From Candidatus Bathyarchaeota archaeon (GTDB taxonomy: Archaea > Thermoproteota > Bathyarchaeia > Bathyarchaeales > SOJC01): 46,714 nucleotides of DNA. Position 1 is the stretch's first letter. The number at the start of each line of letters is the position of its first letter. The stretch lies in the NCBI GenBank assembly GCA_020352645.1, contig CP070683.1, positions 758,188-804,901 of the forward strand, in the 5' to 3' direction. Of the stretch, positions 24,849-44,291 are shown piece by piece. The notes below the pieces were generated by a model. It saw only the letters and a list, made by a program, of their open reading frames with translations. It searched no databases and was not told the DNA's origin. The translations under genes were made by a program, and so were the position numbers.

Positions 24849-27800
24849 TTGAGAAGAATCGAGGAGAAATATCTATCTTTACTGGTGAAACTAGCAGTTT
24901 TTCTTTTATGCACAGCAGCCACAATGAGAACCCTAAACACCTGCGTCTCTTTAGACGCAGCCCGACATGGACCTAGGGAGGATGACCTTGTCATTAGATA
25001 CTATCCAGATTCGCAGACTGCTTACATGGCCTTGAAGAACGATGAGATTGACTTACTCGATTGGGATGTGACAATCAAACCTCCATCACCGCCGGACCCG
25101 TCACCAAATGGCGTTGAAGATTTCATCTGGGTGACAAACTCAATTTCGCCAGATGGGCTAGCAAACTGGGGATTACCCGGTCACACAACTGTTCCAGTAG
25201 ACGCCGGCGCGTACAACGGCTATGGATTGCCTAATTGGACTGGAAACTTCACTGTAGACCACCCACTTGCCTCAGTGAACAGCATAACCGTGCATGCGTT
25301 GCCCTTCACGCCAGACAGTTACACGTATGCGCTTACTGAAGGGGTGGACTTCGTTGTTCACGCTGACGATGATCTGATTGAACTGCTGAACCCGCTGGAC
25401 GTACAGATAATCAATGAGCACTGGAAAGAGGGTGTCAACAACACCCTAAATGGGTGGCCTTGGATTAGATACGTTGCCTCATGCATTCAGAGTGTTTACG
25501 TTGATTTTAACAACGGTACTGCAAGATGGGCTACCAACAACGGCTTTGAGGTTCCTCCACCAAGTGAATGGTGGTATGAGCCTGACTGGCCTGGCGAACT
25601 TGAAGGATGGTGGGCACTAGGCTACTTTGCTGGACCATGGGCGTGGCCCGCAGGTTCCGAATGGTGGGTAAATTACACCGCGGCTTCTCACATCTCTGTT
25701 GATTACAATGCAGAACCAATACTGACTTGGCCAGCAGACTTTTTCACCGATGCTGTAGAAGATCCTTGCCTTGTGTTAGATGCTGTCGCTGACTTCGGCT
25801 TCTATGAGATCGATTTGAACAACAACTACACCATAGGAAGCTACCCTGGCGTTAGGTCACCAATGAACTATACTGAGATGAGGCAGGCAATTGCCTGGTT
25901 AACTGACAAAGAGTATGTGGTGAGCGAGATTTGCGGTGGGTTTGCGGAGAGAATTGACCAGATGATTGCAGCCCCCCTGAAAGGTTGGGCAGACGAAACG
26001 AACTGGTACCCAAATTACCCCTATGAGTATAACCCGCCAGCTGCTGCAGTCTTGTTGAATAGTAAATTCCCACAGGGGGCAACGATAAACCCTTACTACG
26101 ACTCAGCCTTCCCAGGTTCAGCTGAATACATTAGAACCTATCCTCTTGATCACCCACAGAAAGCTGAACAGAATCTTGATCCACTAATTGTTGTCGTTAG
26201 GGATGATGATCAACGAAGATTGCAGACTGGCCGATTAATCTATAGTAACATGAGGAAACATGGCATACCATGCATTGTAATTGAAGGCAGTGCGCCGGCT
26301 GTATATGACCGAGTGATGGGTGACTTTGACTACCACTTCTACACAGGTGGATGGAAGGTTGGAAGATTCCCAGCCGTAACTCTCTACGGTCTATACCACA
26401 GCGACTTCACATATCCACACGGACAAAACTACGTTACAGGCAATCTAACGCATCCAACTCTAGACGCTCTCTTGGAGGCTGGCAACTACGCTCTAACGTA
26501 TCTTGATGCTATCACTGCCACAAAAAGTGCAGGTGGATGGATGACGGAATACTGTGTGAACGTCCCACTTTGGAGCAACGCTGGATACTATGCTTGGCGC
26601 AGCAGCTTGCTAGGCGTAGTGAACATGGAAGGCAGTGGCCCGATTAATGACTACACTTTTCTCAACGCCTACAAAATCGACGGTTCACCAATACGAGTAG
26701 GACTTACGGACGCCCCACATTCCATGAATATTGTCTACTCTAGCTGGCAGGTGGATTACCGGTGCCTAGACAGAATGAATCTATATGGAGGTCAGGAAGT
26801 AGCTCCATATGACTTAGCAGCTGATCAAAATGGCTTCGTTAAGTATCACGAAATCACCACGTGGAGTGATCCTGATGATGGTGGCGCAATCAAATCAAAG
26901 ATCGTTGAGACTTACAGAACCAACGGATATTATTGTGAGCCTGTAACAGGCAACCAGAAAGCAGTTGTAAACGCTTACGACTACATGTGGAACGCATGGT
27001 ACGACTACCAGCTAAACTACGCGTGGTTTAGCTCAAGCTTTTTCGATTTACACCACATCAACGTCCTCAACAGCACCACACTTGAGATCTACTTCGATAC
27101 TCTCAGCTACTGGAACAACTACGACTGCCAAGGCCCACTCAGACCACGCAACATATGGTTTGCTGAGCCATCACTGGTTGGTAGCGCTATCGAAACCTTC
27201 ACTGAAGGTCCTGGAAACGACTTCGAAGCGCCCGACATCGTTCCACTAGCCAACGAACCAATCTTCATCGATTGGGTTGAGGTAAACGATGTGCCTCTAA
27301 CTCCAAACATAGATTACAACATCTACGCTCGAGGTGGAGGACCAAACGCCTACCTAGAGATTCTTACAAGCATAGCTGACGGCAGCACCGTGGATGTGAG
27401 TTACAGGTATCCTATGGACCCGCGAGGCTACACGCCAGGCAACGTGGCATGGCAGACAATCCTTGAAGGCGGCGGCATGTACTACGCAACCAGCTTCACC
27501 CCAGGCGTGGGCGGCAGCATAACGCTGAAGAAGAACCCATTCTACTACCAGGAAACCCCACCGCTCGGTGAAATCGACTTCATCAGAAAGCCAAGTGGGG
27601 AATACGAAGTTGACATATTCGACATTATAGATGTTGCTGGAGCTTTCGGTAGTCAGGGAAAAGGCATACCAGATGCTAATTGGTTGGCAGGAGCTGATCT
27701 CTTTCCGCCTGGAGGAATCATTGATGATTTCGATGTTGCAGTTGTTCATGTTGCGATGGGCACACCAATGGAGAATCATGACGTTGCAGTACTGGCCTTG

Positions 27801-28916
27801 GAACCTTCGCAGACGGAGGTTACTGTTGGAGATCTGGTCCTGGTAAACGTGACTTTAGAAAACCAAGGTGACTACACTGAAACCTTCGAGGTCACCCTTC
27901 GACTATCATGTTCAGGCACTGAAGTAGACAGTCAGAATGTGACATTGGCAAGTATGGAGACTACAACAATCACTATGGTTTGGAACACGACAGGCTTTGA
28001 AGGATATCACACTATATCCGCCTACGCTGGGCCCGTTTATTACGGAGACAGCTTTCCAGAGCACAACTTATGGGACAACTTCCTCTTCGGAGACTTGATT
28101 CATGTAAAACCAGTCTTCCACACTGTTGTTGTTGAGACAGCGGGTCAGAAATACAACATGACAGTGGAAAGCGACGGCATCCTCACGCACATCGTAGCTA
28201 CGAAGAACTCACTCCATCTTGACGTGTCTGGACCACCAGGCCAAACAGCTTATGTCAACGCCACCATCCCAACTGGCCTCAACACCACAAGTATCAAGGT
28301 ATTCGTCGACAACGTCAAGCTGGAATATCCGCCATTCCCCATCATCACAAGTAACGGAACACACTACTTCGTCTACTTTGAAACGACCCTCAGTATACAT
28401 GGCGTGACTTTCAAATACGCGCTTCCTGATGTTGTAGTAGCTAACATTTCATCTTCAAGGGAGATTGTGGGTCAAGGATACATAGTTGTCATGAACGTCA
28501 CGGTCCAAAACTTGGCCACTGAAAGCAGAATGTGCAACGTGTCAATGTTTGCGGATTGTCATCAAATCTTTCTTGGAGACGAAATTATCGTTGGAATCCA
28601 AAACCTGACTATAGCTGGCGAAAGCAACACAACTGTCACTTTCGTGTGGAACACAACTGGTGTGGATAAAGGGTTCTGGGCTCTCTGCGCAGTGGTTGAC
28701 GATGCACAAGTACATGGCCCGATACTGGTTACGTTAGCCGGTGATGTTGACGGAGACCGAGATGTTGACATCTTCGATATTGTTAGAATGGCAGGAGTTT
28801 ATGGTGTTGCCAAGCCGGATCCGGATTACGATCCTATCATAGACCTCGATGGCGACGGAGATATCGACATATTTGACCTAGTTCGAGCTGCAGGAAACTA
28901 CGGAGAAAGCTGGTAG
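24849..28916 (+). CDS. secreted ABC-type (SBP_bac_5-like) solute-binding protein with two dockerin-like and two CARDB-like modules
   Basis: A very large surface protein, about 1355 residues from a TTG at 24849 (AAGGAGAAGG upstream); TTG 24807 is also in frame. A signal segment (YLSLLVKLAVFLLCTAATM) is followed by a family-5 solute-binding region: DSQTAYMALKNDEIDLLDWD, MRQAIAWLTDKEYVVSEICG and VMGDFDYHFYTGGWK. After it come a dockerin-like module (about 915-970; YEVDIFDIIDVAGAFGSQG), a CARDB-like domain, a beta-rich spacer, a second CARDB-like domain (VVVANISSSREIVGQGYIVV) and a terminal dockerin with two calcium loops (DVDGDRDVDIFDIVRMAG, DLDGDGDIDIFDLVRAAG). Family-5 proteins bind peptides, nickel or sugars; no permease or ATPase gene is nearby. 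Many NxT/S sites fit an exported glycoprotein. Confidence 0.93.
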   Translation: MRRIEEKYLSLLVKLAVFLLCTAATMRTLNTCVSLDAARHGPREDDLVIRYYPDSQTAYMALKNDEIDLLDWDVTIKPPSPPDPSPNGVEDFIWVTNSISPDGLANWGLPGHTTVPVDAGAYNGYGLPNWTGNFTVDHPLASVNSITVHALPFTPDSYTYALTEGVDFVVHADDDLIELLNPLDVQIINEHWKEGVNNTLNGWPWIRYVASCIQSVYVDFNNGTARWATNNGFEVPPPSEWWYEPDWPGELEGWWALGYFAGPWAWPAGSEWWVNYTAASHISVDYNAEPILTWPADFFTDAVEDPCLVLDAVADFGFYEIDLNNNYTIGSYPGVRSPMNYTEMRQAIAWLTDKEYVVSEICGGFAERIDQMIAAPLKGWADETNWYPNYPYEYNPPAAAVLLNSKFPQGATINPYYDSAFPGSAEYIRTYPLDHPQKAEQNLDPLIVVVRDDDQRRLQTGRLIYSNMRKHGIPCIVIEGSAPAVYDRVMGDFDYHFYTGGWKVGRFPAVTLYGLYHSDFTYPHGQNYVTGNLTHPTLDALLEAGNYALTYLDAITATKSAGGWMTEYCVNVPLWSNAGYYAWRSSLLGVVNMEGSGPINDYTFLNAYKIDGSPIRVGLTDAPHSMNIVYSSWQVDYRCLDRMNLYGGQEVAPYDLAADQNGFVKYHEITTWSDPDDGGAIKSKIVETYRTNGYYCEPVTGNQKAVVNAYDYMWNAWYDYQLNYAWFSSSFFDLHHINVLNSTTLEIYFDTLSYWNNYDCQGPLRPRNIWFAEPSLVGSAIETFTEGPGNDFEAPDIVPLANEPIFIDWVEVNDVPLTPNIDYNIYARGGGPNAYLEILTSIADGSTVDVSYRYPMDPRGYTPGNVAWQTILEGGGMYYATSFTPGVGGSITLKKNPFYYQETPPLGEIDFIRKPSGEYEVDIFDIIDVAGAFGSQGKGIPDANWLAGADLFPPGGIIDDFDVAVVHVAMGTPMENHDVAVLALEPSQTEVTVGDLVLVNVTLENQGDYTETFEVTLRLSCSGTEVDSQNVTLASMETTTITMVWNTTGFEGYHTISAYAGPVYYGDSFPEHNLWDNFLFGDLIHVKPVFHTVVVETAGQKYNMTVESDGILTHIVATKNSLHLDVSGPPGQTAYVNATIPTGLNTTSIKVFVDNVKLEYPPFPIITSNGTHYFVYFETTLSIHGVTFKYALPDVVVANISSSREIVGQGYIVVMNVTVQNLATESRMCNVSMFADCHQIFLGDEIIVGIQNLTIAGESNTTVTFVWNTTGVDKGFWALCAVVDDAQVHGPILVTLAGDVDGDRDVDIFDIVRMAGVYGVAKPDPDYDPIIDLDGDGDIDIFDLVRAAGNYGESW

Positions 28917-28928
28917 CTCCCGCACCCT

Positions 28929-28936
28929 CTTTTTTA
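28929..28936 (+). terminator. T-run after the solute-binding protein gene
   Basis: CTCTTTTTT lies about 15 bases after the TAG stop. Archaeal transcription often ends at such U-rich tracts without a hairpin. The next gene starts at 28939 on the same strand, so some read-through is possible. Confidence 0.4.
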
Positions 28937-28938
28937 GC

Positions 28939-29772
28939 ATGCGACCATCAAACCTTCTACAATATCTTAAGAAAGCTGTGGAAAACCGCACAGACTACCC
29001 TAACGCACCGATCGTGTCAATCGTCAAAGTTTTATTCCACGATGTAATCTCGGTCATAGATAAAGCGGATGAAGGGAGGAATGCGTGCACGTATGCAAAA
29101 GAGCCTTTTAGTCCTAGCAATATCATTGTCTTATGTGACTTTGATGGGACAGCTGTCAACATCGACACTTGCCAATTCATCCTAGATAGGTTTGCAGGTT
29201 CAGGGTGGAGAACCTTTGACCAACAATACGAGAGAGGGGAGATCAGTCTCGAAAAGAATATGCGGCTGCAGTTCTCCACTGTGAAAGCTCCTTGGAAACA
29301 AGTCTTAAATCAGCTGGAGGAAGCAGCAGAATACAGAAAAGGATTCCCAGAACTCGTCAACTATTGTGGGCAACGCAATATTCCAGTGATAATAGTTAGT
29401 GCAGGGATCGATTTTGTCATTGGACACCTGTTGAAGATGAAATCATGGGAAAACTCATTGGATGTGCACGCCCCGAGAGCTATTCACACTGCCCAAGGTA
29501 TCAGGTTTGTATTTCCGTCCTTGACCTACAAAACCTCCGAGAACTTCAAAGATGATCTCGTCAGAAATTACAAGAAAGAGAACAGAATAGTATTCTACAT
29601 CGGCGATGGGGCGGCAGACTATCACGCGGCTGTTGAAGCTGACTTCCGATTCGCAATTGAGGGATCCAAGCTAGCTGAACTCCTAAGATTGAGTAGCAAG
29701 CCATTCACTGAGATAGAGAGCTTCGAAAGCGTGGTTAGCTTCATTGAATACTGCAGCGAACAATTGTGTTAA
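28939..29772 (+). CDS. HAD-superfamily phosphatase (MtnX/SerB-like)
   Basis: 277 residues. Residues about 55 onward form a HAD-IB domain: motif I VLCDFDGTAVNIDTCQFIL (nucleophile Asp in DFDGT), motif II in VIIVSAGIDFVI, motif III Lys in the YKTSENFKDDLV region and motif IV FYIGDGAADYHAAVEADF. It resembles the enol-phosphate phosphatase MtnX and phosphoserine phosphatases. About 50 N-terminal residues are outside the domain and may be over-called; an internal start is possible. Substrate unknown. Convergent with the heliorhodopsin gene (27-base gap). Confidence 0.88.
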   Translation: MRPSNLLQYLKKAVENRTDYPNAPIVSIVKVLFHDVISVIDKADEGRNACTYAKEPFSPSNIIVLCDFDGTAVNIDTCQFILDRFAGSGWRTFDQQYERGEISLEKNMRLQFSTVKAPWKQVLNQLEEAAEYRKGFPELVNYCGQRNIPVIIVSAGIDFVIGHLLKMKSWENSLDVHAPRAIHTAQGIRFVFPSLTYKTSENFKDDLVRNYKKENRIVFYIGDGAADYHAAVEADFRFAIEGSKLAELLRLSSKPFTEIESFESVVSFIEYCSEQLC

Positions 29773-29799
29773 TCTATGCGTTGTATCACTCGCTGTGGA

Positions 29800-30624
29800 T
29801 TAGAAGGGTGAGAACACACCCACAAACACAAGCCAAGCTAGGATTGACTTCGCGACAAAGCTTAGTATTATGTAGAATCTTTCGCCATAAAGGTAGTCTC
29901 TCCAGCGCCCGACTCCTTTGTATTGTAACACCATGTTTATGGCGAAGACATTGAACAGAATGAAGTAAATCAACAGTATCAGATACACAAATGGTGGAGG
30001 ATTAGTCTCAGTAGATCCTATTGCTGCTATGAAATATGAGAAAAGCACAATCCAAGGTGTTCCTCCTGAAATGCACCCCACTAGGAATGGTGACCAAGTT
30101 GTCTCCTCAGTCTTCTGATTCACCAACTCCATGAAATACCCAAACATAATCATCATGGTGTTGAGGACGAAGATCATCACGAGCGACCAAATCTCCCAAA
30201 CTCCGACTAACATTGCGATCAGAATGATCATTATCGAGCTTGAGAGTGCGTATTCGTACCATCGGTAAGGGTTAATCCCTTTCTTCAGGCTTTCGTTGTA
30301 TTTGTTATTCTTTAGATATGCAATTGAGAAATGTGCTATTGCAGATATGAGTGGGAAGGAAGCTAGAATGACTCCTAAGTAACTGATAGTGAACGCAATC
30401 TGCGGTTTCGGCACGACTTCGAACACTGGTGGGCTGATGCTTATGATGTCTATGTCGAGATAGAAAGTGTAGATATCTCTGGTCCAGTCCAAGAGAAGGC
30501 CTAGACTTAACATGATGATGCCTTGCATCAGATGCAAGATTCCTGCAGCAGTGTTGAAACGCTTCAGATATGCCAAAGAAATCGGAGAATTGGCAATAAT
30601 CTCTTGCCTTTCTTTGTAATCCAT
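29800..30624 (-). CDS. heliorhodopsin
   Basis: A 274-residue seven-helix retinal protein of the heliorhodopsin family. Seen: Schiff-base lysine K259 in LSFVAKSILAWLVF on helix 7, the counterion Glu124 in RWYEYALSSSIMIILIAMLVG on helix 3, paired polar-cavity His31 (ILHLMQG) and His98 (IAHFSIAY), and LQYKGVGRWRDYLYGERFYI before helix 7, a strong family signature. Heliorhodopsins are inverted in the membrane and mostly do not pump ions; proposed roles are light sensing or enzyme regulation. An AAATCATAAA at 30651-30660 lies 27-36 bases before the ATG, pointing to its own leaderless promoter. No retinal-synthesis gene is in the window. Confidence 0.96.
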   Translation of the reverse strand: MDYKERQEIIANSPISLAYLKRFNTAAGILHLMQGIIMLSLGLLLDWTRDIYTFYLDIDIISISPPVFEVVPKPQIAFTISYLGVILASFPLISAIAHFSIAYLKNNKYNESLKKGINPYRWYEYALSSSIMIILIAMLVGVWEIWSLVMIFVLNTMMIMFGYFMELVNQKTEETTWSPFLVGCISGGTPWIVLFSYFIAAIGSTETNPPPFVYLILLIYFILFNVFAINMVLQYKGVGRWRDYLYGERFYIILSFVAKSILAWLVFVGVFSPF

Positions 30625-30650
30625 AAAATAGATTCTATGAACTCATAGGC

Positions 30651-30660
30651 TTTATGATTT
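30651..30660 (-). promoter_or_regulatory. TATA-like element for the heliorhodopsin gene
   Basis: Minus-strand AAATCATAAA is placed 27-36 bases upstream of the heliorhodopsin ATG, the distance expected for a leaderless archaeal transcript; there is no Shine-Dalgarno sequence. It separates heliorhodopsin transcription from the MFS gene upstream. Confidence 0.4.
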
Positions 30661-30704
30661 TCGCAAAAAGAGTCCAATGCCTGCAATAAGGGAGGGGAAT
30701 CGAG

Positions 30705-31973
30705 TCACTCTTCTTTTTTCTCAGGTTCATGCACTAGAAGAAGCGTTAGCACAAACGATGGCAACACTGAAGCTGCTGCCACGAGGAAAGGAAGGTGGGG
30801 TGAGAAATGCTCGTACAGCACACCGCCAGCTAAATTACCCAGAGCCATGACGATAAAACCTACAAAGTTCGCGAACCCCATTACCTTCCCTCTCTCAGCC
30901 CTGGGAGTGAGATCAGCCTGAAGCGCTCCGAAGGCTGCGTTCAGCATGACCTGCCCGACACCTACTAAGGCAAGAGAGACAAATAGCACGGTTATGTTGC
31001 CATTCATGAAAAGCCACATTGAAGCACCAAATACCAGATAAGACGCTAGAAGGGGGATTTTGCGAGTTGCCTTGTCAACTGCTTTACCCACAGGAATCGA
31101 CAGGATTATTATGGTGATTGGAACTGCTGCCATGATTAAAGGCCAAATCGCGGCGTCTATCAACAGTTCATTTATCGCAAACAGTGGAAAATACAGCATC
31201 ACAGTGGCGAAGCCAAACTGCGTTATCAGAAGCGAAAGGAATAGATATAACATTGACGAGGGAACTTTCTTCCAAACAGCGAGACTCTCTTTCAATGCAA
31301 CTGGATAGCTTTTCAGAATCTCACTAAGGCCAGGTCTCTCTACTGTGACCATGGTTTCTTTCAGCTTGAACGCTCTGAGGATTGCAGCTATGAGAAATAA
31401 GCCCACTATTATACCATATCCAATCCTCATCCCCTGAATCAGTCCAAAATTGCTGAAGAGCAACGCCGCCACGACAGGACCTGGCGTCGTTGAAGCGCTT
31501 GCTATGAGTGTGACAATCCCAAAACCCATACCTCTCTTTTCAGGAGGTAGTGAATCAGCCACCATCGCCATTAAAGCTGGCTGATATGTGGAGTTAAAGA
31601 AGCTCATGAGAACCGCGCCAATAAGGATGAAATGCCAAGATGGTGCTATGGCATAGAAGATATAGCTTAACGTGACGCCAAAGGTCATGGAGGAAATGAG
31701 CCATTTCCTACCAAACTTGTCAGCCAGATAGCCACCTGGAAACTGCATGGATGCTAAAGCCAAGAATTGGAAAAGCCCGATTGTTCCAACTATCGTTTCA
31801 GTAGCTCCCAACCCCAATACGTACAAAGCGTAGTAAGCAACTGGAATTTCGACCGCAAAATCTATCAGAATCCAACTGGTGATAAGGACCGCATAGTTGC
31901 CTTTAATGAAGGAGAATTCTTGCCTGATTCTTTGTATAAAGGACGTAGGCGCTTCGCCAACGGGCACGCTCAT
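30705..31973 (-). CDS. MFS transporter
   Basis: Major facilitator superfamily permease, about 422 residues, twelve hydrophobic segments. The conserved loop 2-3 motif is present as GGYLADKFGRKWLI. Other marks: ALYVLGLGATETIVGTIGLF, SLPPEKRGMGFGIV and LTPRAERGKVMGF, common in drug/H+ antiporter-like MFS proteins. ATG 31973 fits better than TTG 31991 because GAAAGGGAT precedes it. A TetR-type palindrome lies between its TATA-like element and start codon, suggesting inducible efflux. No regulator gene is adjacent. Confidence 0.93.
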   Translation of the reverse strand: MSVPVGEAPTSFIQRIRQEFSFIKGNYAVLITSWILIDFAVEIPVAYYALYVLGLGATETIVGTIGLFQFLALASMQFPGGYLADKFGRKWLISSMTFGVTLSYIFYAIAPSWHFILIGAVLMSFFNSTYQPALMAMVADSLPPEKRGMGFGIVTLIASASTTPGPVVAALLFSNFGLIQGMRIGYGIIVGLFLIAAILRAFKLKETMVTVERPGLSEILKSYPVALKESLAVWKKVPSSMLYLFLSLLITQFGFATVMLYFPLFAINELLIDAAIWPLIMAAVPITIIILSIPVGKAVDKATRKIPLLASYLVFGASMWLFMNGNITVLFVSLALVGVGQVMLNAAFGALQADLTPRAERGKVMGFANFVGFIVMALGNLAGGVLYEHFSPHLPFLVAAASVLPSFVLTLLLVHEPEKKEE

Positions 31974-31996
31974 ATCCCTTTCGCTTCCCAATGCTT

Positions 31997-32053: not shown

Positions 32054-32145
32054 ACTCTCCCAAGCGAGCTGAATCTAACCTTGATCCATTTCACTAGTCA
32101 GAGGTTGAGGACATGAGAACAATGGGGAAACTGTGCTTGGAGAAG

Positions 32146-32460: not shown

Positions 32461-32571
32461 GCCCTTTGCTTCTACATTTCAGATACATAAGTATGTTATG
32501 AAGCCTGAATCAGTATACACGCACAAAGAGAACAAAGTGCAGTATTTGGAGTGTGAGATTGGAATAGAAAG

Positions 32572-34154: not shown

Positions 34155-34982
34155 ATGAGCATTGTCTACGCTTGTATTGCCCCCCATGGATATGAGATCA
34201 TTCCTAAGCTTGCAGGAAAGCTGTTTGAAGCTTTCGAAGAAACGCGTGAAGGAATGAAGCTAATGGCAAGCACTCTGAAGAGGGGTAGACCTTCGACTGT
34301 CGTCATAGCGACGCCTCATGGTTTGAGGTTGGAACATACGATTGCTGTGGTGACAGCAGAGTATTGTGAAGGGACTCTGAAGGCTCATGGCAAATCCGTG
34401 AATATTCGTTGCAAATGTGACAGAAAACTTGCCAGCTCGATTCTGCAGTTAGCGAGAGGTGCGAAGCTTCCTGTTGTAGGAGCGAATTTCGGGTCGAACG
34501 AGGGACCTAGCTCTTGTATGCCTATGGATTGGGGAACATTCATACCTCTATGGTTCTTCGGTGGGAAACCGAAGACGGCTCCAGAAAGAAAAATAGTGAT
34601 TGTGGCTCCTTCTAGAGAAATCCCGTTGACTGAACTAGTGAGGTTTGGCGAAGTCATTTCCGATGCAGCTGAAAGCTCCGACAAGAAGGTTGCTTTTGTG
34701 GCAAGTGCTGATCAAGGACATGCTCATGACAAAAATGGTCCTTATGGATATCACCCAGCATCTTTGGAGTATGACAAGCTTGTTGTCAAGGCTGTTAAGG
34801 AGAATAACCTAAAGCTGCTCTTGGAGCTTGATGCGGAATTCATTGAGAATGCGAAACCTGACAGTCTCTGGCAGATAGCGATTCTCTCAGGAGTCCTCAC
34901 TCGTGTTCCTTTGAAGGCCAGATTTGTTTCGTATCAAGCGCCCACTTATTATGGCATGCTGTGTGCAGACTTCCAATCTTGA
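34155..34982 (+). CDS. class III extradiol dioxygenase (LigB)-like protein
   Basis: 275 residues from ATG 34155 (TTG 34149 also in frame). The N-terminal IVYACIAPHGYEIIPKL supplies a metal His, and PSTVVIATPHGLRL, SADQGHAHDKNGPYGYHPAS carry further His candidates, as in LigB-type dioxygenases and MEMO-like relatives. In anaerobic archaea such proteins probably do not cleave aromatic rings with O2; the true activity is unknown. Its 3' end overlaps that of the anchored cohesin-like gene by 34 bases on the opposite strand. Confidence 0.85.
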   Translation: MSIVYACIAPHGYEIIPKLAGKLFEAFEETREGMKLMASTLKRGRPSTVVIATPHGLRLEHTIAVVTAEYCEGTLKAHGKSVNIRCKCDRKLASSILQLARGAKLPVVGANFGSNEGPSSCMPMDWGTFIPLWFFGGKPKTAPERKIVIVAPSREIPLTELVRFGEVISDAAESSDKKVAFVASADQGHAHDKNGPYGYHPASLEYDKLVVKAVKENNLKLLLELDAEFIENAKPDSLWQIAILSGVLTRVPLKARFVSYQAPTYYGMLCADFQS

Positions 34983-36265
34983 TGCTTGCCGGTGACCTCA
35001 AACATCGATATTATAGTACTCTTGGTTTTCTCAACGCTCAAAGCTCGGGAATTATCACGTTCACAAGAAGGGGACGAATCGCGAGTTCTCGTTCTTCTTG
35101 CCCTATATAGTAGGGCGATTAGTGTGCCAGCGATGAGTAACGATATGGGAACTATCATTGAGGGGAATTCCGGAACGACGGTGTATTGGTGTGTGTATCC
35201 CAGCTCTTCGCTTGTGATAACGTTGCCCACATTATCTTCAGCTTCAATAACGAACTCTACGGTGGTGCCATTGGCGAATTTCGGGATTGTAGTATTGTAG
35301 AAGCGGCTGAAAGGGTTCATCATTTCCAAAGGGATCCATGTTCCGTCACTTATCGTATAATTCAGGGTGACGCGCTTTACACCTGCGAAATCATCTCCAA
35401 CTGAAGCATTGACTCTTACACTGTCCTCTGGCTGGACGTCATTCACAGATGGGGCTTGAACTATTCCTGTTATGGATGGAGGGCTAGTATCGACAGCAAA
35501 GTGAACAGTGGTAGATTCATTTACAGCGCCTGAAAGATTCGCATAAACAATTATGTAATGCAATCCATCAAGAAGCGTAGAAAGAGTTGTGTTGGCCGTG
35601 ACTGTTTCATTAGCAATGCCATCCAAACTGTATCCGATCCAAGTGGCAGGTTCACTCAAAGCAAACGTGAGATCTACCTCATCGCTTGGATATACCTTGT
35701 TCTCAGGTGAAATTATCGAAACTCCACTAGACTGAACTATCTTCACACTGCTTAGTGAAGTTGTGTGAGGAATAGAAGATGCGCCAGAATCGACCAAGTC
35801 TTCCTTCGTAAACTCCAAATGTGTTGTTCCAACATGATTCAATGCTTTGAAAGTTATCACAACAATTGTTCCGCTTCCATTAAAGGGGACGTCAATAAGT
35901 GTGGCGAATGCGGCCTTGTAGGTTCCATTGATCTGATCCACTGAATCCGAAACTTCATAGCCCGAATATAATATTCCAGCGTAGGGGCTTGGAGAGACTG
36001 GCTCTCGGTGATCATTCCAAGGTGTCGTGAATATATGGTCTATGTATTCAAGATAGCTGGTGTTCCAATTGACTTCAATGTCGAAGCCTTGAAGATCGTT
36101 CACGCTTTCAACTACAACTGCGATTTTGAATACTTGATCAACTTCAACTGTTAAAGGTTGAGGTAGAAATCCTAGCGAAGTAACTTCTTCTCCAAAAGTA
36201 CCAGAGATTGAAGTTAAATACGGAAAAGCAAGGCACAAACCCAGTACCAGTGTGATTAGTCTCAT
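34949..36265 (-). CDS. membrane-anchored cohesin-like surface protein (PEFP-type anchor)
   Basis: 438 residues from ATG 36265, after AAGGAAAT; the signal peptide (MRLITLVLGLCLAFPYL) fits. About 30-180 is a cohesin-like domain: LTVEVDQVFKIAVVVESVND, LQGFDIEVNWNTSYLEYI, SGTIVVITFKALNHVGTTHL, then DLVDSGASSIPH. A module with WIGYSLDGIANETVTANTTL follows, then an Ig-like domain (VRVNASVGDDFAGVKRVTL). The end has VPEFPSMIVPISLLIAGTLI and RARR: a PEFP-type motif, membrane span and basic stop. About 50 residues follow the span, which is unusual for a processed anchor. It probably presents the cohesin outside the cell for dockerin proteins made nearby. Confidence 0.88.
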   Translation of the reverse strand: MRLITLVLGLCLAFPYLTSISGTFGEEVTSLGFLPQPLTVEVDQVFKIAVVVESVNDLQGFDIEVNWNTSYLEYIDHIFTTPWNDHREPVSPSPYAGILYSGYEVSDSVDQINGTYKAAFATLIDVPFNGSGTIVVITFKALNHVGTTHLEFTKEDLVDSGASSIPHTTSLSSVKIVQSSGVSIISPENKVYPSDEVDLTFALSEPATWIGYSLDGIANETVTANTTLSTLLDGLHYIIVYANLSGAVNESTTVHFAVDTSPPSITGIVQAPSVNDVQPEDSVRVNASVGDDFAGVKRVTLNYTISDGTWIPLEMMNPFSRFYNTTIPKFANGTTVEFVIEAEDNVGNVITSEELGYTHQYTVVPEFPSMIVPISLLIAGTLIALLYRARRTRTRDSSPSCERDNSRALSVEKTKSTIISMFEVTGKHQDWKSAHSMP

Positions 36266-36564
36266 ACATTTCCTTGTCAAATCACTCTTCCCACATTAAT
36301 ACTGGTGCATGCTAGACCAGAGCTAAGGTAATGCACACTCCTGCAACAATATATCTTTTGCGCGGCACAGGAGAACACAGGCTCACATTGACGAAAGCTC
36401 ATGCTCAATCTACACGGAACATCATTACTGTCGAAGCGCCTTTGACTGAGGTACTGCACACGTGCTAACTGCTAAAAGCTTATACCTTTGTGTATCGTCT
36501 AGACTAGCTCTCTGAGCAGTTGTCTCAGATGGAATTAAGTGGAAATGAGAACGGAGGAAACACT

Positions 36565-37122
36565 TTGAAAAGGATCATAGCATTGGAAGCTGTATTCATG
36601 ATGCTGATGGCTGCGTTGATCTTTCCAAGCTTCGCTGCATTCTCACCTACAGACGCTCAAAGACCTGCATTCTCAATCGGAATAGTATCTCCCGAAAACA
36701 GAACGTACATTTCCGAATCTGTCCCCGCAAATCTCTCGCTCGAAGTGCAACATAGCCTACCAAGAACGGAGTTCCTAAGCTGGATTGGCTACAGCATAGA
36801 TGGAGCAGAGAATGTTACAGTAGAAGGAAACACAACGATTCCTATTACCTCATATGGATCTCACAGCATTACTGTGTACGCGACCGATGTAAATGGAACA
36901 GACTATGCTTCTGACACTTTGCACTTTACTCTCACAATACCAGGTGATTTTAACGGAAATGGACAGGTCGACATTCCAGACGTCGTACTAGCAGCGATGG
37001 CTTTCGAAGCTACACCAAGTGACCCGAATTGGAACCCTGACGTAGATCTTGCACCAGTCTTTGGAAGAATCGACATATTCGATCTTGCAACTTTAGTTTC
37101 ATACTATGGAAACTCAGCGTAG
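36565..37122 (+). CDS. small secreted dockerin protein
   Basis: 185 residues from TTG 36565, chosen because GGAGG stands seven bases upstream and a clean signal peptide follows (KRIIALEAVFMMLMAALIF). TTG 36520 and ATG 36529 are in-frame alternatives. The mature protein has one beta-sandwich module with SWIGYSIDGAENVTVEGNTT, clearly related to a module in the anchored cohesin-like protein encoded divergently. A dockerin pair ends it: DFNGNGQVDIPDVVLAAMAF and the degenerate FGRIDIFDLATLVSYYG. It has no catalytic domain and may be an adaptor or ligand on the cell surface. Confidence 0.85.
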   Translation: MKRIIALEAVFMMLMAALIFPSFAAFSPTDAQRPAFSIGIVSPENRTYISESVPANLSLEVQHSLPRTEFLSWIGYSIDGAENVTVEGNTTIPITSYGSHSITVYATDVNGTDYASDTLHFTLTIPGDFNGNGQVDIPDVVLAAMAFEATPSDPNWNPDVDLAPVFGRIDIFDLATLVSYYGNSA

Positions 37123-37224
37123 CATAGAAACTCTCTCCCTTTTTCTCTACGCGGGAATATGTGCTCTTTCATCTGAGAGATTTTCCATAAGCAGCTTAGC
37201 CGCGCAAGAATTTGCGCCTGTAGC

Positions 37225-37240
37225 GATATATATTATATAC
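37225..37240 (+). promoter_or_regulatory. TATA box for the TPR/KaiC-like gene
   Basis: GATATATATTATATAC lies about 90 bases before ATG 37322 and inside the false N-terminal extension of the frame, supporting the later start. A T-rich CCCTTTTTCT at 37137-37146 just upstream probably ends transcription of the dockerin gene. Confidence 0.55.
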
Positions 37241-37321
37241 ACGCGGGTACTTTTCTGTAGATTCAAGCATGCGCCCCGAAAGTTTTTCATACTCAGAGAG
37301 AGCATTTCTGGTGGAGATTTG

Positions 37322-40300
37322 ATGCCAACAGAGCTGGAAGACGCGGCGGAAATGAAGAGAGCTAGAGAACACGAAAGCAATTGGGACTGGTTTGAAGCAG
37401 CAAAAGCATACGAAAAGGCGATCACATCAGAAGCGACTGATCAACCAAGGAAAGCAGAGCTTTGGGAAAGAGTGGGATACTGCTATGACTTGGCTTCACG
37501 ACAGGCTGATGAATCGCCTGAATTCGCGAAGTTGAGAAAAGCTTCTGTGGAAGCCTACAAAACTGCAGCTGAACACTTTGAAAACATGCAGAACTCAGGA
37601 AAAAGCCTGCAATGCAAAGCCATAGCCGAACTTGTGAGTTCTTGGTTGGCATCTGATACTTCAGAGAGAAAGAGAGCTCTTGAAGAATGCACTTCGTACG
37701 GTAAAAGAAGCCTGGAGAGTCTTAGAAAGGCAGGCGACAGGCTAGCATATGGAAAGATGTGCAACGAACTTCTTCAATGCACCCTTGAGAAGATTAACGT
37801 TGCATCTGATTGGGAGGAAATGTCAAGTGTTGCTCAAGAAGGAATAGAGCTCGCTAAAGAGAGTATCACAGTCCTGTCACGATTAAACGACAAAACTGAA
37901 CTCCTTCGAACGTATTTTCTCGCAAGCCTTGTGAGTTGGAATGGACATGGAATCATGCCTGAAAGAACAGATCTCATGCAACAAAGTCTAACATGCTGTG
38001 AGAAAGCAATTAGACTGTCAAAGGAAGCAGACGACCCGTACTCGATTGCCAACGCAAACTGGGCCTCATCGGTTTGCAAGCTTCTTTTCACTGAAAAAGC
38101 AGAAGAAGCATTAAACCACGCTAGAACAATGATGAAACAAGGCGAATTGACGCGGGACAATTACCTGAAGGGTATAGCATCATACCTTCTTACTTTTGTT
38201 CAAGATTGGATGATCAAAAGAGAAGGAGATCCCGAAAAAAAGAAGACAGGCCACGAAAAGATAATCAAACACGCAAGAAACGCTATAAAGTATCTTGAAC
38301 CGATTCATCAAGACTTCTTCATTGCCGGCACCTACCTGTTCTACACCGAAACTCACTCGTCCTTGGCGCGAGAGTTTACACCTGGACTGGACGAGAAGCG
38401 GGCAATGTTGAAACAAGCAGTGGAAGCAGGACGAAGCGGGCTCAAACACGCAACCAAATCAGGATCACCAGACGCAACTGGATCTAACCTTCATGCTCTG
38501 AGCAAAGCTTTGCACTTCTACTCCAACATAGAAACCGCTCAAACGAGGAAGAAGAAACTTCTAGAAGAAGCGTTGATGCACAGACAAATGTACATCGATG
38601 TTGCAGAACGATCCTATTCCACCAATAACTGGATCAAGGGAGTTGGAAGAAGCTATGAGGGATTGGTGAGAGTCGATCTTGCCAGAGTCGAAAAAGACAA
38701 GGCGAATAGGAAGACCCTCTTCGAGAAAGCTGTACTCAGCATGGAAGAAGGAATAACCTTCTCCAGAAGATGGATTCTTTCACACCCAAACCCGACTTTG
38801 ATGGCTGTTGTGGCAAGATATGAAGATGGATTTGCAGCGATACTAAAAGAACTCTATCTACTGACAGATGATGCAGAACTTCTAGCAAGAGCAAACGAAG
38901 CCCTCAGTGAAGCAGCATCAAAATTTAAGAGAGTCAGACTGTCGAGCCGAGTCGCCGAGTGTTACTGGAAAATAGCGAACAACCTCGACTATATCGGACG
39001 AAATGAGCAGTCAGGGGAGAATTTTGAGAAAGCACATGGAGAATACAAAGCTGCCGCAAGAGAAATCCCTAATTTCGCTGACTTCTACTCGGATTACGCA
39101 ACATACATGAAAGCATGGAGCGAAATCGAGAAGGCAAAACACGCACACAAAAAAAGAGAATACTCAACCTCATATGAACATTATCAGAAAACCTCAAACA
39201 TACTTGAAGAGTCAAAGCAATGGAATTATCTAGCTCCAAACTTTCTAGCATGGGCACTCTTAGAAAAAGCAGAGGACTATAGCAGAAGAGAAGCTAACAC
39301 TGAATCAACAGAAAGCTTCAAGGAGTCAATCAAAACCCTCCGCAAAGCCAAGCATACACTTCAGACTCAGTCAGAAAAAATCGATAATGCGGACGAAAAG
39401 CAATTGGCAGAGACACTAATCAAAGCCTCAGACATGAGACAGAAATATTGCCTAGGAAGGATCGCGGTCGAAGAAGCGAAGATTCTAGACAGACAAGGAG
39501 ATCACACATCGAGTTCTGCAAAATATGGATCTGCAGCGGAGACGTTCAAGGGAATAGTAGGAAAGGAATTCGAGCAAGCCACCTCAGAGGTGAAACCGCT
39601 AATATATCTCTGCCAAGCATGGCAGAAAATGATGATGGCGGAAGCCAAAGCATCCCCAAGCTTGTTTGGCGAGGCAGCGGAGCTTTTCCAAGAAGTCAAG
39701 AAACACACGACTGATCAATCAACGAGTCTGATGACGCTGGCGCACAGTAGCTTCTGCAAAGCTCTGGAAGCAGGAACCGAGTTTGAAATTAGCATGGACA
39801 TGAAAGACTATACCACAGCTACAAAGCACATGGAGACTGCTGCGAATTACTACTTGAGAGCGGGCTTCAAAGGAGCCTCAGCATATGCAAAAGCAACCCA
39901 ACGGCTTTTCGAAGCATACGTACACCTAAACAATGCAAAGACGGAAATGAATCCGGAGACTCAAGCAAGGTATTATTCAATGGCTGAAAAGATCTTGGAG
40001 ATTTCAGCTGGATACTATGTTGAGGCCCGGCACCCTGAGAAAACGAAGCAAGTTAGACAGCTGCTCCAAGAGGTTAGAGAGGATAGAGAATTAGCTGTCT
40101 CGCTTGGAGAGGTCTTGCATGCTCCAACTATCACCTCATCAACTACAAGCTTCATGACCTTAACTCCTCATGAAGAAACTGCCGTCGGTTTAGAGAGATT
40201 CGAACGGGCGGATATCCAAGCAAAGCTGATTCCACATGAACAGGAGATAAGATCAGGAGAAGGCTTCGACCTAGAAATCCAAATAATGAATGTTGGCAAA

Positions 40301-41248
40301 GAAGCCGTCTTGCTGTCAAAGATTGAGCAAGTTACCCCCGTGGGCTTTGAAATAACGGCAAAACCCGACTACTGCTACTTTGAAGATGGAAATCTTGACA
40401 TGAAAGGAAAACGGCTTGACCCGTTAAAGACTGAAGAGATAAAACTTGCTTTGAAGACTTTCGGTAAGGGAGTCTTCGAAATATCCCCTAGAATTCTATG
40501 CGTTGATGAACACGGAAACAACATACTGAGAGGCCCTGATCCCATCACCGTCACAGTACAAGAGACTGTGCTGCCTGGCCGATTGACAACAGGCTACGAC
40601 GGACTTGATAATCTGTTATTCGGTGGGATACCAGAAGGCTACTCAGTTGTCCTCACATCCCCTTCATGCGACGAAAGAGACGTGCTGATAAGGAAATTCC
40701 TCGAAGCTGGTGTTCAAGAAAATCAAACGACCTTGTACGTTACCATAGAAACGAGCGGAATGGTTGATCTGGTAGAAAAGTTTCAGGACCACCTTCAACT
40801 CTTTGTCTGCAATCCCAGAGCAAACGCTATGATAAAGGATCTACCAAACGTACACAAACTGAAAGGTGTGGAAAACCTAACAGACATCGAGATTGCTCTA
40901 GTGTCAACCTTCCGGCAACTAGGCCCCCAAACCGGGCCGAGAAGAGCATGTATTGCGATAGTCTCAGACATATTGCTGCAACATCACGCCATCACAACCA
41001 GGAAATGGTTAGCTGGACTGATTCCGGAATTGCGCTCCAAAGGCTTCACAACTGTAGCAGTGGTGAATCCGCTAATGCACAGCTCAGAAGAGGTCCATGC
41101 AATCTTGGGCTTGTTCGAAGGAGAAATCTCCATTTACGAAAAGGAAACAGCAAGAGGCATAGAGAAATCTCTACGAGTGAAGAAGATGATAAGCCAGAAG
41201 TACCTGCGAAGCGAAATCGCTCTTAGCATGGAAACAATGGAAACGTAG
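37322..41248 (+). CDS. giant TPR protein with degenerate KaiC/RecA-like C-terminal domain
   Basis: 1308 residues from ATG 37322, after GGTGGAGAT. About 1-940 is a TPR-like helical solenoid, e.g. NWDWFEAAKAYEKAITSEAT and many A-x3-Y/F repeats. A beta-sandwich follows (about 960-1080; IPHEQEIRSGEGFDLEIQIM). Residues from about 1084 are KaiC-like: LTTGYDGLDNLLFGGIPEGY, then LTSPSCDERDVLIRKFLEAG where a Walker A loop should be. No GxGKT remains, so ATP hydrolysis is not expected; the domain probably binds a partner or senses. No signal peptide, so it is cytosolic. Comparable fusions occur in other archaea without known function; a signalling scaffold is likely. Confidence 0.88.
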   Translation: MPTELEDAAEMKRAREHESNWDWFEAAKAYEKAITSEATDQPRKAELWERVGYCYDLASRQADESPEFAKLRKASVEAYKTAAEHFENMQNSGKSLQCKAIAELVSSWLASDTSERKRALEECTSYGKRSLESLRKAGDRLAYGKMCNELLQCTLEKINVASDWEEMSSVAQEGIELAKESITVLSRLNDKTELLRTYFLASLVSWNGHGIMPERTDLMQQSLTCCEKAIRLSKEADDPYSIANANWASSVCKLLFTEKAEEALNHARTMMKQGELTRDNYLKGIASYLLTFVQDWMIKREGDPEKKKTGHEKIIKHARNAIKYLEPIHQDFFIAGTYLFYTETHSSLAREFTPGLDEKRAMLKQAVEAGRSGLKHATKSGSPDATGSNLHALSKALHFYSNIETAQTRKKKLLEEALMHRQMYIDVAERSYSTNNWIKGVGRSYEGLVRVDLARVEKDKANRKTLFEKAVLSMEEGITFSRRWILSHPNPTLMAVVARYEDGFAAILKELYLLTDDAELLARANEALSEAASKFKRVRLSSRVAECYWKIANNLDYIGRNEQSGENFEKAHGEYKAAAREIPNFADFYSDYATYMKAWSEIEKAKHAHKKREYSTSYEHYQKTSNILEESKQWNYLAPNFLAWALLEKAEDYSRREANTESTESFKESIKTLRKAKHTLQTQSEKIDNADEKQLAETLIKASDMRQKYCLGRIAVEEAKILDRQGDHTSSSAKYGSAAETFKGIVGKEFEQATSEVKPLIYLCQAWQKMMMAEAKASPSLFGEAAELFQEVKKHTTDQSTSLMTLAHSSFCKALEAGTEFEISMDMKDYTTATKHMETAANYYLRAGFKGASAYAKATQRLFEAYVHLNNAKTEMNPETQARYYSMAEKILEISAGYYVEARHPEKTKQVRQLLQEVREDRELAVSLGEVLHAPTITSSTTSFMTLTPHEETAVGLERFERADIQAKLIPHEQEIRSGEGFDLEIQIMNVGKEAVLLSKIEQVTPVGFEITAKPDYCYFEDGNLDMKGKRLDPLKTEEIKLALKTFGKGVFEISPRILCVDEHGNNILRGPDPITVTVQETVLPGRLTTGYDGLDNLLFGGIPEGYSVVLTSPSCDERDVLIRKFLEAGVQENQTTLYVTIETSGMVDLVEKFQDHLQLFVCNPRANAMIKDLPNVHKLKGVENLTDIEIALVSTFRQLGPQTGPRRACIAIVSDILLQHHAITTRKWLAGLIPELRSKGFTTVAVVNPLMHSSEEVHAILGLFEGEISIYEKETARGIEKSLRVKKMISQKYLRSEIALSMETMET

Positions 41249-41404
41249 TTGTTGCACCTAAGTCAAGAACCTCTGCTACACGAGGAAAAAGAACAGCCTC
41301 CAAATTCGCAGAACCCTTCAACTAGGAGCTTATTCTGAAAAGTGCTAGCAACATCGTGCTAATGGCCTCGTAAGACGCATATTCTCTTGGGCGGTGTTGT
41401 ATTG

Positions 41405-41635
41405 TCATTGAGTTTCTAGTTTGTAAATCACGTTCAGGCCTTTCAGAGTCTCGTGCACGGCGTTTGCTATCTGGAATATTTCCTCCAGATCAATGGTTCT
41501 ACCCCAGTCGTAAACGTGATCATAATGTCCTTTAACGGGTTTGAAGCCCATGCTTCTAAGCTTTTCAGCAACGACTGTTGGGTTTGAACCTTCACTGTTG
41601 AACCATATTGTCAAATAGGTTTTCAAACAATCCAC
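41405..41635 (-). CDS. conserved small hypothetical protein
   Basis: 76 residues, looks like a compact alpha/beta domain: LKTYLTIWFNSEGSNPTVVA, EKLRSMGFKPVKGHYDHVYD, LEEIFQIANAVHETLKGLNV and IYKLET. Composition and a regular secondary-structure pattern support a real gene. I recall similar short proteins in archaeal genomes without a function. It stands alone between the TPR gene and the cupredoxin-like gene. Confidence 0.65.
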   Translation of the reverse strand: MDCLKTYLTIWFNSEGSNPTVVAEKLRSMGFKPVKGHYDHVYDWGRTIDLEEIFQIANAVHETLKGLNVIYKLETQ

Positions 41636-41752
41636 CTGCGGATTCAGTAACTATATTCTCATTATTGCTCTTTTAAGCCTGCTCAACATTCTCTGGCTGA
41701 GCGCTCAGGAGAAAAGTTGAGAATGTGAAAATAAAAGGGGAAAGGGCTTGTG

Positions 41753-42652
41753 TTACCAGCTTTTACCGTAGTTGGATGCTGCTGCCACTATGTCGAAAAT
41801 ATCAATGTCTCCATCGTCATCTACGTCAGAGTTCGAGTCGTATTTCGGGTGTGGTTTTGAAACTCCGTAAGCTCCTGCCATACGCACAATGTCGAATATG
41901 TCGATATCCCGATCGCCATCAACGTCACCAGCTAAAGTAATCAGCACTACACCATCAACGAAGGAGTTATCGGAGGTTTCAGTCTCACCTGGAACCACAT
42001 CTGCATTGGCATTCAGAGAGTAATTTCCCTTTGAAAAAAGCGTTGTGTTCCAATCGAAGGTTAGAGTATGATTCTCTCCAGGATTGAGTATTACCGAGGT
42101 TTTGAAGATTTCTGTTGTGTTGGCTTTGACTGTTATGTTGAAGTTTTCTATGAAGCCGCCTTGGTTTTCAACCGTCACATTCATTGACACTTTGAATCCT
42201 TGACCAACTGTTGCCTTTGGCAGGCAGCCAGACTTTGAGTGACCCAGACTGGTGACTGCAACATCATGAAGATCTGACGTGACGTTAATGAAGCCAGTTA
42301 TCCAGAGCATGTCAAAGCTGTAGTATTGAAGCTCCACCGAATCGGTGAATGTATGTGACCAAGTTGTGCCGGGAGGTATCGGATCAGAGAGAAGATATGT
42401 AGATCCATTAGCTGTGAAAACGAACCACAGCGTGTGAATGACAGAGTCAGTGTTATTCCACCGAATGGTGTCGCCAGGATTGATTGTGAGATTTTGCGGA
42501 AGAAACGCTAGATTAGAAATCTCCACCTCGTGAGTGACTTGAGCACTGACCCGCTGAACCACATGTGTCGTAAAGAAAAGAGTTGCCACTGAGGCAACCA
42601 ATATGGTAGCCACTGTGAAGCGTCTTTTGAAACAGGATGCTGTTCTGTTCAT
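41753..42652 (-). CDS. secreted cupredoxin-like protein with CARDB and dockerin
   Basis: 299 residues from ATG 42652. Signal peptide (RRFTVATILVASVATLFF), then a cupredoxin-like domain: VEISNLAFLPQNLTINPGDT, IRWNNTDSVIHTLWF, then LQYYSFDMLWITGFINV. Plastocyanin relatives have YYC-x2-H-x2-M in the last loop; here Cys, His and Met are Ser, Met and Ile, leaving only the first His, so type-1 copper binding is unlikely. A CARDB-like domain (FKVSMNVTVENQGGFIENFN) and two dockerin loops follow (DVDGDRDIDIFDIVRMAG, DVDDDGDIDIFDIVAAAS). The dockerin nearly copies that of the large solute-binding protein. It follows the two-cohesin gene by 40 bases and is probably co-expressed with it. Confidence 0.88.
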   Translation of the reverse strand: MNRTASCFKRRFTVATILVASVATLFFTTHVVQRVSAQVTHEVEISNLAFLPQNLTINPGDTIRWNNTDSVIHTLWFVFTANGSTYLLSDPIPPGTTWSHTFTDSVELQYYSFDMLWITGFINVTSDLHDVAVTSLGHSKSGCLPKATVGQGFKVSMNVTVENQGGFIENFNITVKANTTEIFKTSVILNPGENHTLTFDWNTTLFSKGNYSLNANADVVPGETETSDNSFVDGVVLITLAGDVDGDRDIDIFDIVRMAGAYGVSKPHPKYDSNSDVDDDGDIDIFDIVAAASNYGKSW

Positions 42653-42692
42653 AGAGTCCCGCTCCCTTCTAGAGTGGGTGTTTCGAAGCAGT

Positions 42693-44291
42693 CTATGGAT
42701 CGTAGGGGAAGTAACTTGACCACCAATACCAATGTCTCCAGTAAACCCAGTGCCACCACCAACCCCACCAAGGTCGCCAGAATGGTACAACTGTGTACGG
42801 GTAATAGTAGGCCTTAACATAGCAACGCCACCACCAATAGGGTCCCCAGAACCAATTCGGATGGTTGTGACTATCATGCCACCAGTAGTAGAAGTGAACA
42901 ACTCTTCCTACAGGAGTCCAAGCCCACCAGTAGAAGTCTATGAAGAAGTATGGTTCCGCGTTGTATATGATGAAGGGATCTACCTCTGGAATCTGATCAG
43001 GCGGTAGAAGGTTTGTGACGAAGCCCATCGCCATGCTTGAGCCATCGCTCATTTCAGCCGAAAGCAGGCAGGCACGCGTGCCATCTTCCAGCATGTTGCT
43101 GGACCACCATGAGGCTACTGTTCCATTGAACGGTTCTGATCCCGGTTCGAAGTAGATGTCAAAGAATGAATCGACCTGGTATAAGCCTCCGCCGACGTGT
43201 TCGTCAAACACGAATCCTTTTGCTTCAAGCTCAGCCTTCACTTCAGCATAGCCCTCTGCCGAGCCTGGTGGTACAAACGGTATATCTGTCAGGTAGTATG
43301 GATATGGCAGCTCCACCAGATGTTGAAGCTTAAGCGGTTCCCAATACTCTACTTGAAGAACCCTGCCGTCAGCTCCCACGTAAGGTATAAGCCATCCTTG
43401 TGAGGTGTATAAGTTCAGCGAGCTAATGGTTAAGATGCTTTCTCCGCCTCCAGTGCAGTGGAATGTTGCTTTTGCAATGGACCCGCTGCCAGTTGATCCG
43501 CCTGGAGAGGTTGTTGAAACATCGAATTCTATGGTGCCCAGTGAATCGTCAATTAACTTGTAGTCCACTGATACAGGAGGCAGGATGAAGCCGCCGGGTA
43601 CAATGTCGATTGCATCAACGAAGGTAGTGTCGTAGTTCAGTATTAGCTGGAAGCTGGCTAGGTCATATCCTATTGGGATGTCAACCATCACGTCGACAGG
43701 AAATGGTGTGCAGACGGGTACGGTGTAGTCAGCGGGGTCAATCCAAGCAGTTGCTGGTGGTATGGTCTGATACACAGCTGCGTTGTTTGTGTCGATGGCT
43801 GGAACGTGCTCTATTGAAGAGGCGTCTGAGAGAAATATCTCCTCAAGAAAAATTGTGCTTTGGCCTGGGTTGTCACAGTGGAATTCAACATGTGCTAGAG
43901 GAACATCGGTGCTTGTTGTGCTGCCGCCATCTAATGTTTCCGCCCAGCAGTATACTGCGTCGGTGCCTAAACCATAGTAATCGGGCAAGTGTACCCAATT
44001 GAAACTAACAGGTGATTGAAGGAAGCCTCCGTCCCAAGCGCTTACAGGCGTCATTTGGGAAGCGTCGAAGCTCAGATAGAATGCGTAATCGTAGATTGCG
44101 GGAGTCGAGACCCACATCATCCAAACGGTGATGATGAAGTTGTTGCATGGCGCCACGTTTGTTGTGTCTGGTCTGAGGTCAACGATTGCATCTGTCTGTG
44201 CTTGAGCAGGCTGCAGAGTCACAAAGAGTGCTGTTATGACGCAGATGATTAGTGATACACTAATGAGCAATTTCCTATTCACCACTCTCAT
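42693..44291 (-). CDS. secreted protein with two cohesin-like domains and an aromatic-rich C-terminal tail
   Basis: 532 residues from ATG 44291; GTG 44285 has better spacing to GGAGG. Signal peptide (KLLISVSLIICVITALFV), then two cohesin-like domains, about 35-180 (IYDYAFYLSFDASQMTPVSA) and 185-325 (ASFQLILNYDTTFVDAIDIV, SGSIAKATFHCTGGGESILT). A mixed domain (about 330-450) follows. The last 80 residues hold 21 Trp, 13 Tyr, 5 Phe and 6 His, e.g. RVVHFYYWWHDSHNHPNWFW and RPWWGWWWHWVYWRHWYWW. No membrane span or PEFP anchor is seen, so retention at the surface may depend on that tail. The cupredoxin-dockerin gene lies 40 bases downstream. Confidence 0.88.
   Translation of the reverse strand: MRVVNRKLLISVSLIICVITALFVTLQPAQAQTDAIVDLRPDTTNVAPCNNFIITVWMMWVSTPAIYDYAFYLSFDASQMTPVSAWDGGFLQSPVSFNWVHLPDYYGLGTDAVYCWAETLDGGSTTSTDVPLAHVEFHCDNPGQSTIFLEEIFLSDASSIEHVPAIDTNNAAVYQTIPPATAWIDPADYTVPVCTPFPVDVMVDIPIGYDLASFQLILNYDTTFVDAIDIVPGGFILPPVSVDYKLIDDSLGTIEFDVSTTSPGGSTGSGSIAKATFHCTGGGESILTISSLNLYTSQGWLIPYVGADGRVLQVEYWEPLKLQHLVELPYPYYLTDIPFVPPGSAEGYAEVKAELEAKGFVFDEHVGGGLYQVDSFFDIYFEPGSEPFNGTVASWWSSNMLEDGTRACLLSAEMSDGSSMAMGFVTNLLPPDQIPEVDPFIIYNAEPYFFIDFYWWAWTPVGRVVHFYYWWHDSHNHPNWFWGPYWWWRCYVKAYYYPYTVVPFWRPWWGWWWHWVYWRHWYWWSSYFPYDP

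Follow-up and report, generated by a model that had tools for sequence, protein, structure and literature searches.

The window analysed here, a stretch of 46,714 nucleotides from the genome of Candidatus Bathyarchaeota archaeon (contig CP070683.1; G000:C1:758188-804901 of a single contig of 1.68 Mb), encodes five exported proteins that carry cohesin or dockerin modules. Two of them are cohesin proteins (34949..36265 and 42693..44291, both on the minus strand) and three end in a dockerin, i.e. a solute-binding protein (SBP) of family 5 (peptide/nickel; 24807..28916, plus strand), a small protein with an immunoglobulin (Ig)-like domain (36520..37122, plus strand) and a protein with a cupredoxin fold (41753..42652, minus strand). 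A preliminary description of the window had listed the same five exported genes, and all were recovered as open reading frames (ORFs) at its positions.

The first cohesin protein (34949..36265, an ORF of 443 residues) is the candidate anchoring receptor of the window. It combines a cohesin module (residues 40-175, 35756..36163) with an Ig-like stalk, a PEFP motif and, directly after this motif, a C-terminal membrane helix (35105..35161; hydropathy 2.16 over 19 residues), which bears out the membrane anchoring previously described for it. Taken as 34949-36280, the protein has no match in the Pfam scan of the window; it matches a cohesin of the Acetivibrio scaffoldin ScaB by sequence (4u3s, E=0.002). 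As to a possible PEF-CTERM substrate of an archaeosortase, the PEFP motif and the helix are present, and a gene for an archaeosortase-family protein (TIGR04178, 51.7 bits) lies 10 kb ahead of the oligopeptide permease (Opp) operon discussed below; the tail beyond the helix is long and models of sorting signals gave no match. The second cohesin protein (42693..44291), taken as 42693-44330 in the Pfam comparison, exceeds the Cohesin cut-off (PF00963; 29.1 versus 24.1 bits) and holds two modules, a divergent first one (residues 54-176, 43803..44171) and a second one at residues 197-322 (43365..43742). With a genome-trained profile, whose iterated training set included the window modules, the module of the anchored protein reaches 125 bits and those of the two-cohesin protein 79 and 101 bits, respectively. 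AlphaFold2 models of the anchored protein's cohesin (built from 3 sequences) and of the second module of the two-cohesin protein are of moderate confidence (predicted local distance difference test, pLDDT, 72.6 and 65). In Foldseek searches the best 50 PDB matches of either model are cohesin entries; the archaeal cohesin 2xdh is matched with a TM-score (by target) of 0.80 in the former case and ranks first in the latter. Profile and fold comparisons thus favour genuine cohesins, as had been called by eye, over unrelated beta-sandwiches. The C-terminal tail of the two-cohesin protein (42696..42920, minus strand) is unusually aromatic, with 47% Trp, Tyr or Phe and 19 Trp among the last 75 residues, and is conserved in genomes G017 and G006.

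The three window dockerins remain under the cut-off of Pfam Dockerin type I (PF00404; 11.9-17.0 versus 22.9 bits), while close paralogues in the genome pass it. A profile built from dockerins of this genome, to whose seed the three belonged, gives E=7e-32 for the SBP, 4e-32 for the cupredoxin-like protein and 8e-27 for the small protein. Moreover, the dockerin of the cupredoxin-like protein matches the solved cellulosomal dockerin 2y3n (E=4e-4), so that the dockerins, too, proved genuine in spite of their low Pfam scores. They consist of duplicated calcium loop and helix segments, with both loops complete in the C-terminal dockerins of the SBP (residues 1312-1366, 28740..28904) and of the cupredoxin-like protein (41765..41929), and the second loop degenerate in the small protein (36943..37110). 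The window modules are not due to chance.

The five genes are part of a genome-wide set and no self-contained system. With the genome-trained profiles, dockerins were detected in 36 ORFs and cohesins in 17, both modules being combined in five; these numbers are lower bounds, as only the stretches around Pfam and profile matches were covered. Some of the ORFs (L054, L063, L057, L115) are joined or cut by runs of N, an artefact which in L063 fuses a metallo-beta-lactamase-like start to a PKD-dockerin protein. Clustering in the window is weak: when 48 genes were placed at random, five fell within 19.5 kb somewhere in 8.7% of the trials, and gene density is equal or higher at 1252-1270 kb and 1137-1157 kb. 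Elsewhere in the genome there are scaffoldins with three cohesins (1258155-1264193) or with three cohesins and a dockerin (1152995-1154950). The dockerins lie mostly at the extreme C-terminus, and many of the proteins bearing them contain CARDB, PKD, NosD or propeller domains. Outside the window, Pfam identifies peptidases (two of family M14, one each of C11 and C25) among the cargo, which further includes PQQ-type propellers, NosD beta-helices and an arylsulfotransferase-like protein. The latter (L046, G000:C1:636455-638647) is an unusual cargo that has CARDB and a C-terminal dockerin besides its arylsulfotransferase-like propeller. The absence of degradative enzymes noted in the preliminary description therefore holds within the window and fails for the genome, where the same dockerin is found on four peptidases. 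When the window proteins and 19 further dockerin proteins, a subset of the dockerin genes, were scanned with Pfam, no glycoside hydrolase appeared. Across the order both modules are present in 33 of 61 genomes and both absent in 18, and their counts correlate (Spearman 0.83 over the 61 genomes, 0.88 over 34 genus means), with p-values that are inflated by relatedness.

The SBP, an ORF of 1369 residues with a likely start near 24849, exceeds the cut-off of SBP_bac_5 (PF00496; 48.7 versus 32.4 bits) and has two CARDB matches, which confirms a ligand-binding protein of the peptide/nickel family among the dockerin proteins. Its layout comprises a circularly permuted SBP with an inserted domain (domain X), a degenerate dockerin, CARDB repeats and the C-terminal dockerin. 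Domain X (residues 102-308, 25110..25730, plus strand) is inserted near the N-terminal end of the SBP and has no Pfam match; copies of it, 73-78% identical, are found in two-cohesin scaffold proteins near the Opp operon (1147370-1147978 and 1156984-1157415). The domain is also present in G007 and has no copy in an otherwise similar protein of G012 (contig C37). The internal dockerin (residues 931-982, 27597..27752, plus strand; profile E=1.8e-7, 41 bits), overlooked in the preliminary description, has degenerate calcium loops and is the equivalent of the C-terminus in the binding proteins of Opp operons.

The nearest paralogue of the window SBP (69% identity over residues 309-980) is the first gene of an SBP-oppB-oppC-oppD-oppF operon at 1137596-1145191. 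The dockerin at the C-terminus of this operon SBP (E=5.7e-8) has degenerate loops; the protein is devoid of a C-terminal helix and lacks both domain X and the CARDB-dockerin tail, which are extra in the window protein. After oppBCDF come, in turn, genes for a two-cohesin protein, for a protein with a dockerin, for one with CARDB and a membrane helix at its C-terminus, and for a scaffold with three cohesins and a dockerin. The arrangement extends to another genus, being the same in G012:C46 and, up to the contig end, in G007:C18. A dockerin-bearing SBP precedes oppBCDF in the genome studied here, in G012, G007 and G009 and in Bathyarchaeota CSMAG_571, with cohesin genes following in the first three. 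Although no permease match was obtained within the window, and docking had been suggested to take the place of an ABC permease, a dockerin-bearing paralogue at the head of an oppBCDF operon with cohesins speaks against such a substitution; docking more likely complements the permease.

The profile of family 5 matches these SBPs in swapped order, positions of about 146-360 coming first and 2-141 thereafter. A profile of canonical relatives recovers the same swap in homologues (72.6 and 73.1 bits for the two pieces in G026, 78 and 91 in G035, 36 and 112 in G013); in the window SBP alone the signal is weak (14.3 and, for the second piece, 7.5 bits). As a phmmer search of the PDB with the operon SBP returned no match, the permutation call rests on the relative-built profiles and the Pfam positions. 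It is at the new C-terminus of the permuted proteins that the dockerin or, in other genomes, a membrane helix is attached. A second permuted type of family 5, with canonical positions 386-509 followed by 36-373 and a membrane helix at the C-terminus, was seen in L158, L145, L140, L141, L155 and L156 (G036, G037, G049, G058, G046 and G048).

Among complete SBP C-termini, the dockerin-poor genomes have 22 with a membrane helix, five with neither and none with a dockerin, and the dockerin-rich genomes have 16 with a dockerin, three with a helix and five with neither; dockerin and helix never occur together on one SBP. Because the two are mutually exclusive, the dockerin can be regarded as a replacement of the membrane anchor, and this exclusivity is the best evidence that it may do the anchor's job on SBPs.

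It is rather probable, judged from these sequence comparisons, that the five window genes belong to a non-cellulosomal cohesin-dockerin system for surface display which extends over the whole genome, with docking as its predicted principle. In such a system exported proteins would end in a dockerin instead of a transmembrane anchor and would be kept near the cell by binding to specific cohesin partners, some of them membrane-anchored (like 34949-36265) and others multi-cohesin scaffolds with dockerin or X domains of their own. Its main cargo so far would be oligopeptide/nickel-family binding proteins and extracellular peptidases, supplemented by beta-propeller and beta-helix proteins. The window SBP, as a dispersed paralogue of the OppA-like protein encoded with oppBCDF, would most likely concentrate peptides at the surface and deliver them to that or another permease. 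A more far-reaching and quite tentative idea is that peptidases and permuted oligopeptide SBPs are assembled by their dockerins on the cohesin scaffolds encoded with oppBCDF, giving a peptide-harvesting complex in which protein cutting, peptide capture and uptake are coupled on the cell surface.

Several observations weigh against a surface display system of this kind. Synteny of the window is poor, at most 12 cohesin-only genes face 36 dockerin genes, and many of the former are without a visible anchor. The degenerate-loop dockerins of the operon SBPs may no longer dock via calcium. Regarding the anchor swap, the sample of SBPs is non-random, and one change is enough to account for it on their tree (the helix-bearing sequences lie on one side of a branch with support 62/64), so that the correlation is not built from independent events; repeated independent swaps are accordingly not supported.

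According to the preliminary description, the five genes would make up a complex dedicated to solute capture, with the SBP docking on an anchored receptor in place of an ABC permease. Their position inside 20 kb, the anchored cohesin and the lack of a permease match in the window agree with this model, which nevertheless appears improbable given the equivalent dockerin and the neighbouring cohesins of the oppBCDF paralogue and a clustering that is only weakly above chance. Moreover, the counterpart of the window SBP in G007 has no neighbouring cohesin genes. This G007 locus and the weak clustering also led to the rejection of a conserved operon of the five genes, which do not form a conserved unit: only the pair formed by the two-cohesin gene and the cupredoxin-like dockerin gene recurs, in G006 and in G017 (another family), the aromatic tail included. 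Recurrence of cohesin-dockerin gene pairs in two families is at the same time difficult to reconcile with the view that the archaeal 'dockerins' serve mainly as C-terminal caps stabilised by calcium or as modules for association with the surface layer, unpaired with these cohesins. The degenerate loops of several dockerins would be understandable on that view, but cohesin and dockerin counts rise together over the order, the recognition positions are conserved, and archaeal cohesin-dockerin pairs are cited as binding specifically in a passage of a study on anaerobic methanotrophic (ANME) archaea (PMC9012536); we therefore consider it rather unlikely. About as unlikely is a system serving chiefly adhesion or cell-cell contact by means of CARDB, PKD, beta-helix and propeller stalks, with nutrient capture being secondary. 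Such domains are frequent on the dockerin proteins, and a role in adhesion or contact has been proposed for ANME archaea (PMC5244752), whereas the peptidase cargo and the linkage between cohesins and the oppBCDF operon suggest nutrition.

Dockerin-bearing OppA-like proteins as such are already known from ANME archaea: the passage concerned (PLoS Biol 2022, PMC9012536) reports many dockerin and cohesin proteins, in which SBPs of NikA/OppA type commonly carry dockerins and some multi-cohesin proteins have a dockerin as well, all of which resembles the present case. These archaea belong to another lineage, and the same passage is silent on a link to Opp operons, an anchor swap, permuted SBPs and peptidases with dockerins. 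Both modelled window cohesins match 2xdh, the non-cellulosomal cohesin of Archaeoglobus fulgidus, a comparison that concerns the fold only; here, by contrast, there are multi-cohesin scaffolds, and the dockerin proteins number in the dozens. With clostridial cellulosomes the genome shares exported proteins tagged by a dockerin, scaffoldins that combine several cohesins with a dockerin, and membrane-anchored cohesins, but the dockerin proteins checked include peptidases and SBPs instead of glycoside hydrolases, and no carbohydrate-binding scaffoldin was seen. Natural circular permutation of an ABC-type binding protein is known from Tp0684/MglB-2 (PMC4990184), which is a sugar-binding protein of cluster B, whereas the SBPs described here belong to family 5. 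We found no literature on dockerins replacing the membrane anchors of SBPs or on an Opp-cohesin operon, in a search that mostly did not extend to subscription papers and hence does not establish priority. The role of cohesins and dockerins outside cellulosomes has been called unknown (PMC5244752), and to substitute for a membrane helix as anchor would be a concrete function of the archaeal modules that can be tested. Anoxic sediments are rich in Bathyarchaeia; some lineages degrade detrital protein, and a cultivated member was described as having no extracellular proteases (PMC12694404, PMC10477458). A docking system that retains secreted peptidases and SBPs would explain how these archaea keep the products of hydrolysis, and the peptide-harvesting complex, if true, would be a proteolytic counterpart of the cellulosome.

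Some indications on partner choice come from the calcium loops, whose positions 10-11 make contact with the cohesin when clostridial type I modules pair. Most dockerins of the genome have Ile-Phe or Ile-Tyr at these positions in both loops (Ile-Phe in both loops of the C-terminal dockerin of the window SBP), a pattern to be expected if they had a single class of partners. The exceptions include the dockerins of a cluster at 1252-1270 kb, the cohesins of which also branch apart; this suggests two pairing groups in the genome. In the cohesin tree the module of 34949-36265 falls, with weak support, among cohesins that come first in the Opp-linked scaffolds and apart from those of the cluster (1252-1264 kb). 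The cluster itself (G000:C1:1252496-1270396) is dense, with seven cohesin or dockerin genes and a permuted binding protein with dockerin of its own.

The remaining window genes call for few remarks. The small dockerin gene (36520-37122) and the anchored cohesin gene (34949-36265) are divergently transcribed neighbours, and the Ig-like domains of their products are 43% identical. The cupredoxin-like gene (Pfam Copper-bind 21.7 bits, CARDB 28.5 bits) lies 40 bp downstream of the two-cohesin gene and shares its strand. Its product had been regarded as possible redox cargo, a role that is unlikely: the type-1 copper Cys is replaced by Ser and the second His by Met, and in its relatives in G006 and G017 the first copper-ligand His, otherwise conserved, is a Tyr. 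Loss of the Cys led to the rejection of the protein as a redox candidate, and the domain is therefore probably a binding or structural one rather than an electron carrier. In G017 the conserved gene pair adjoins a gene for a dockerin-bearing protein that by eye resembles subtilisin-type proteases. Finally, a protein of 1380 residues (37106..41248, plus strand) with weak TPR similarity, whose C-terminal part is an ATPase domain like that of KaiC (Pfam 41.7 bits), is encoded amid the cohesin and dockerin genes.

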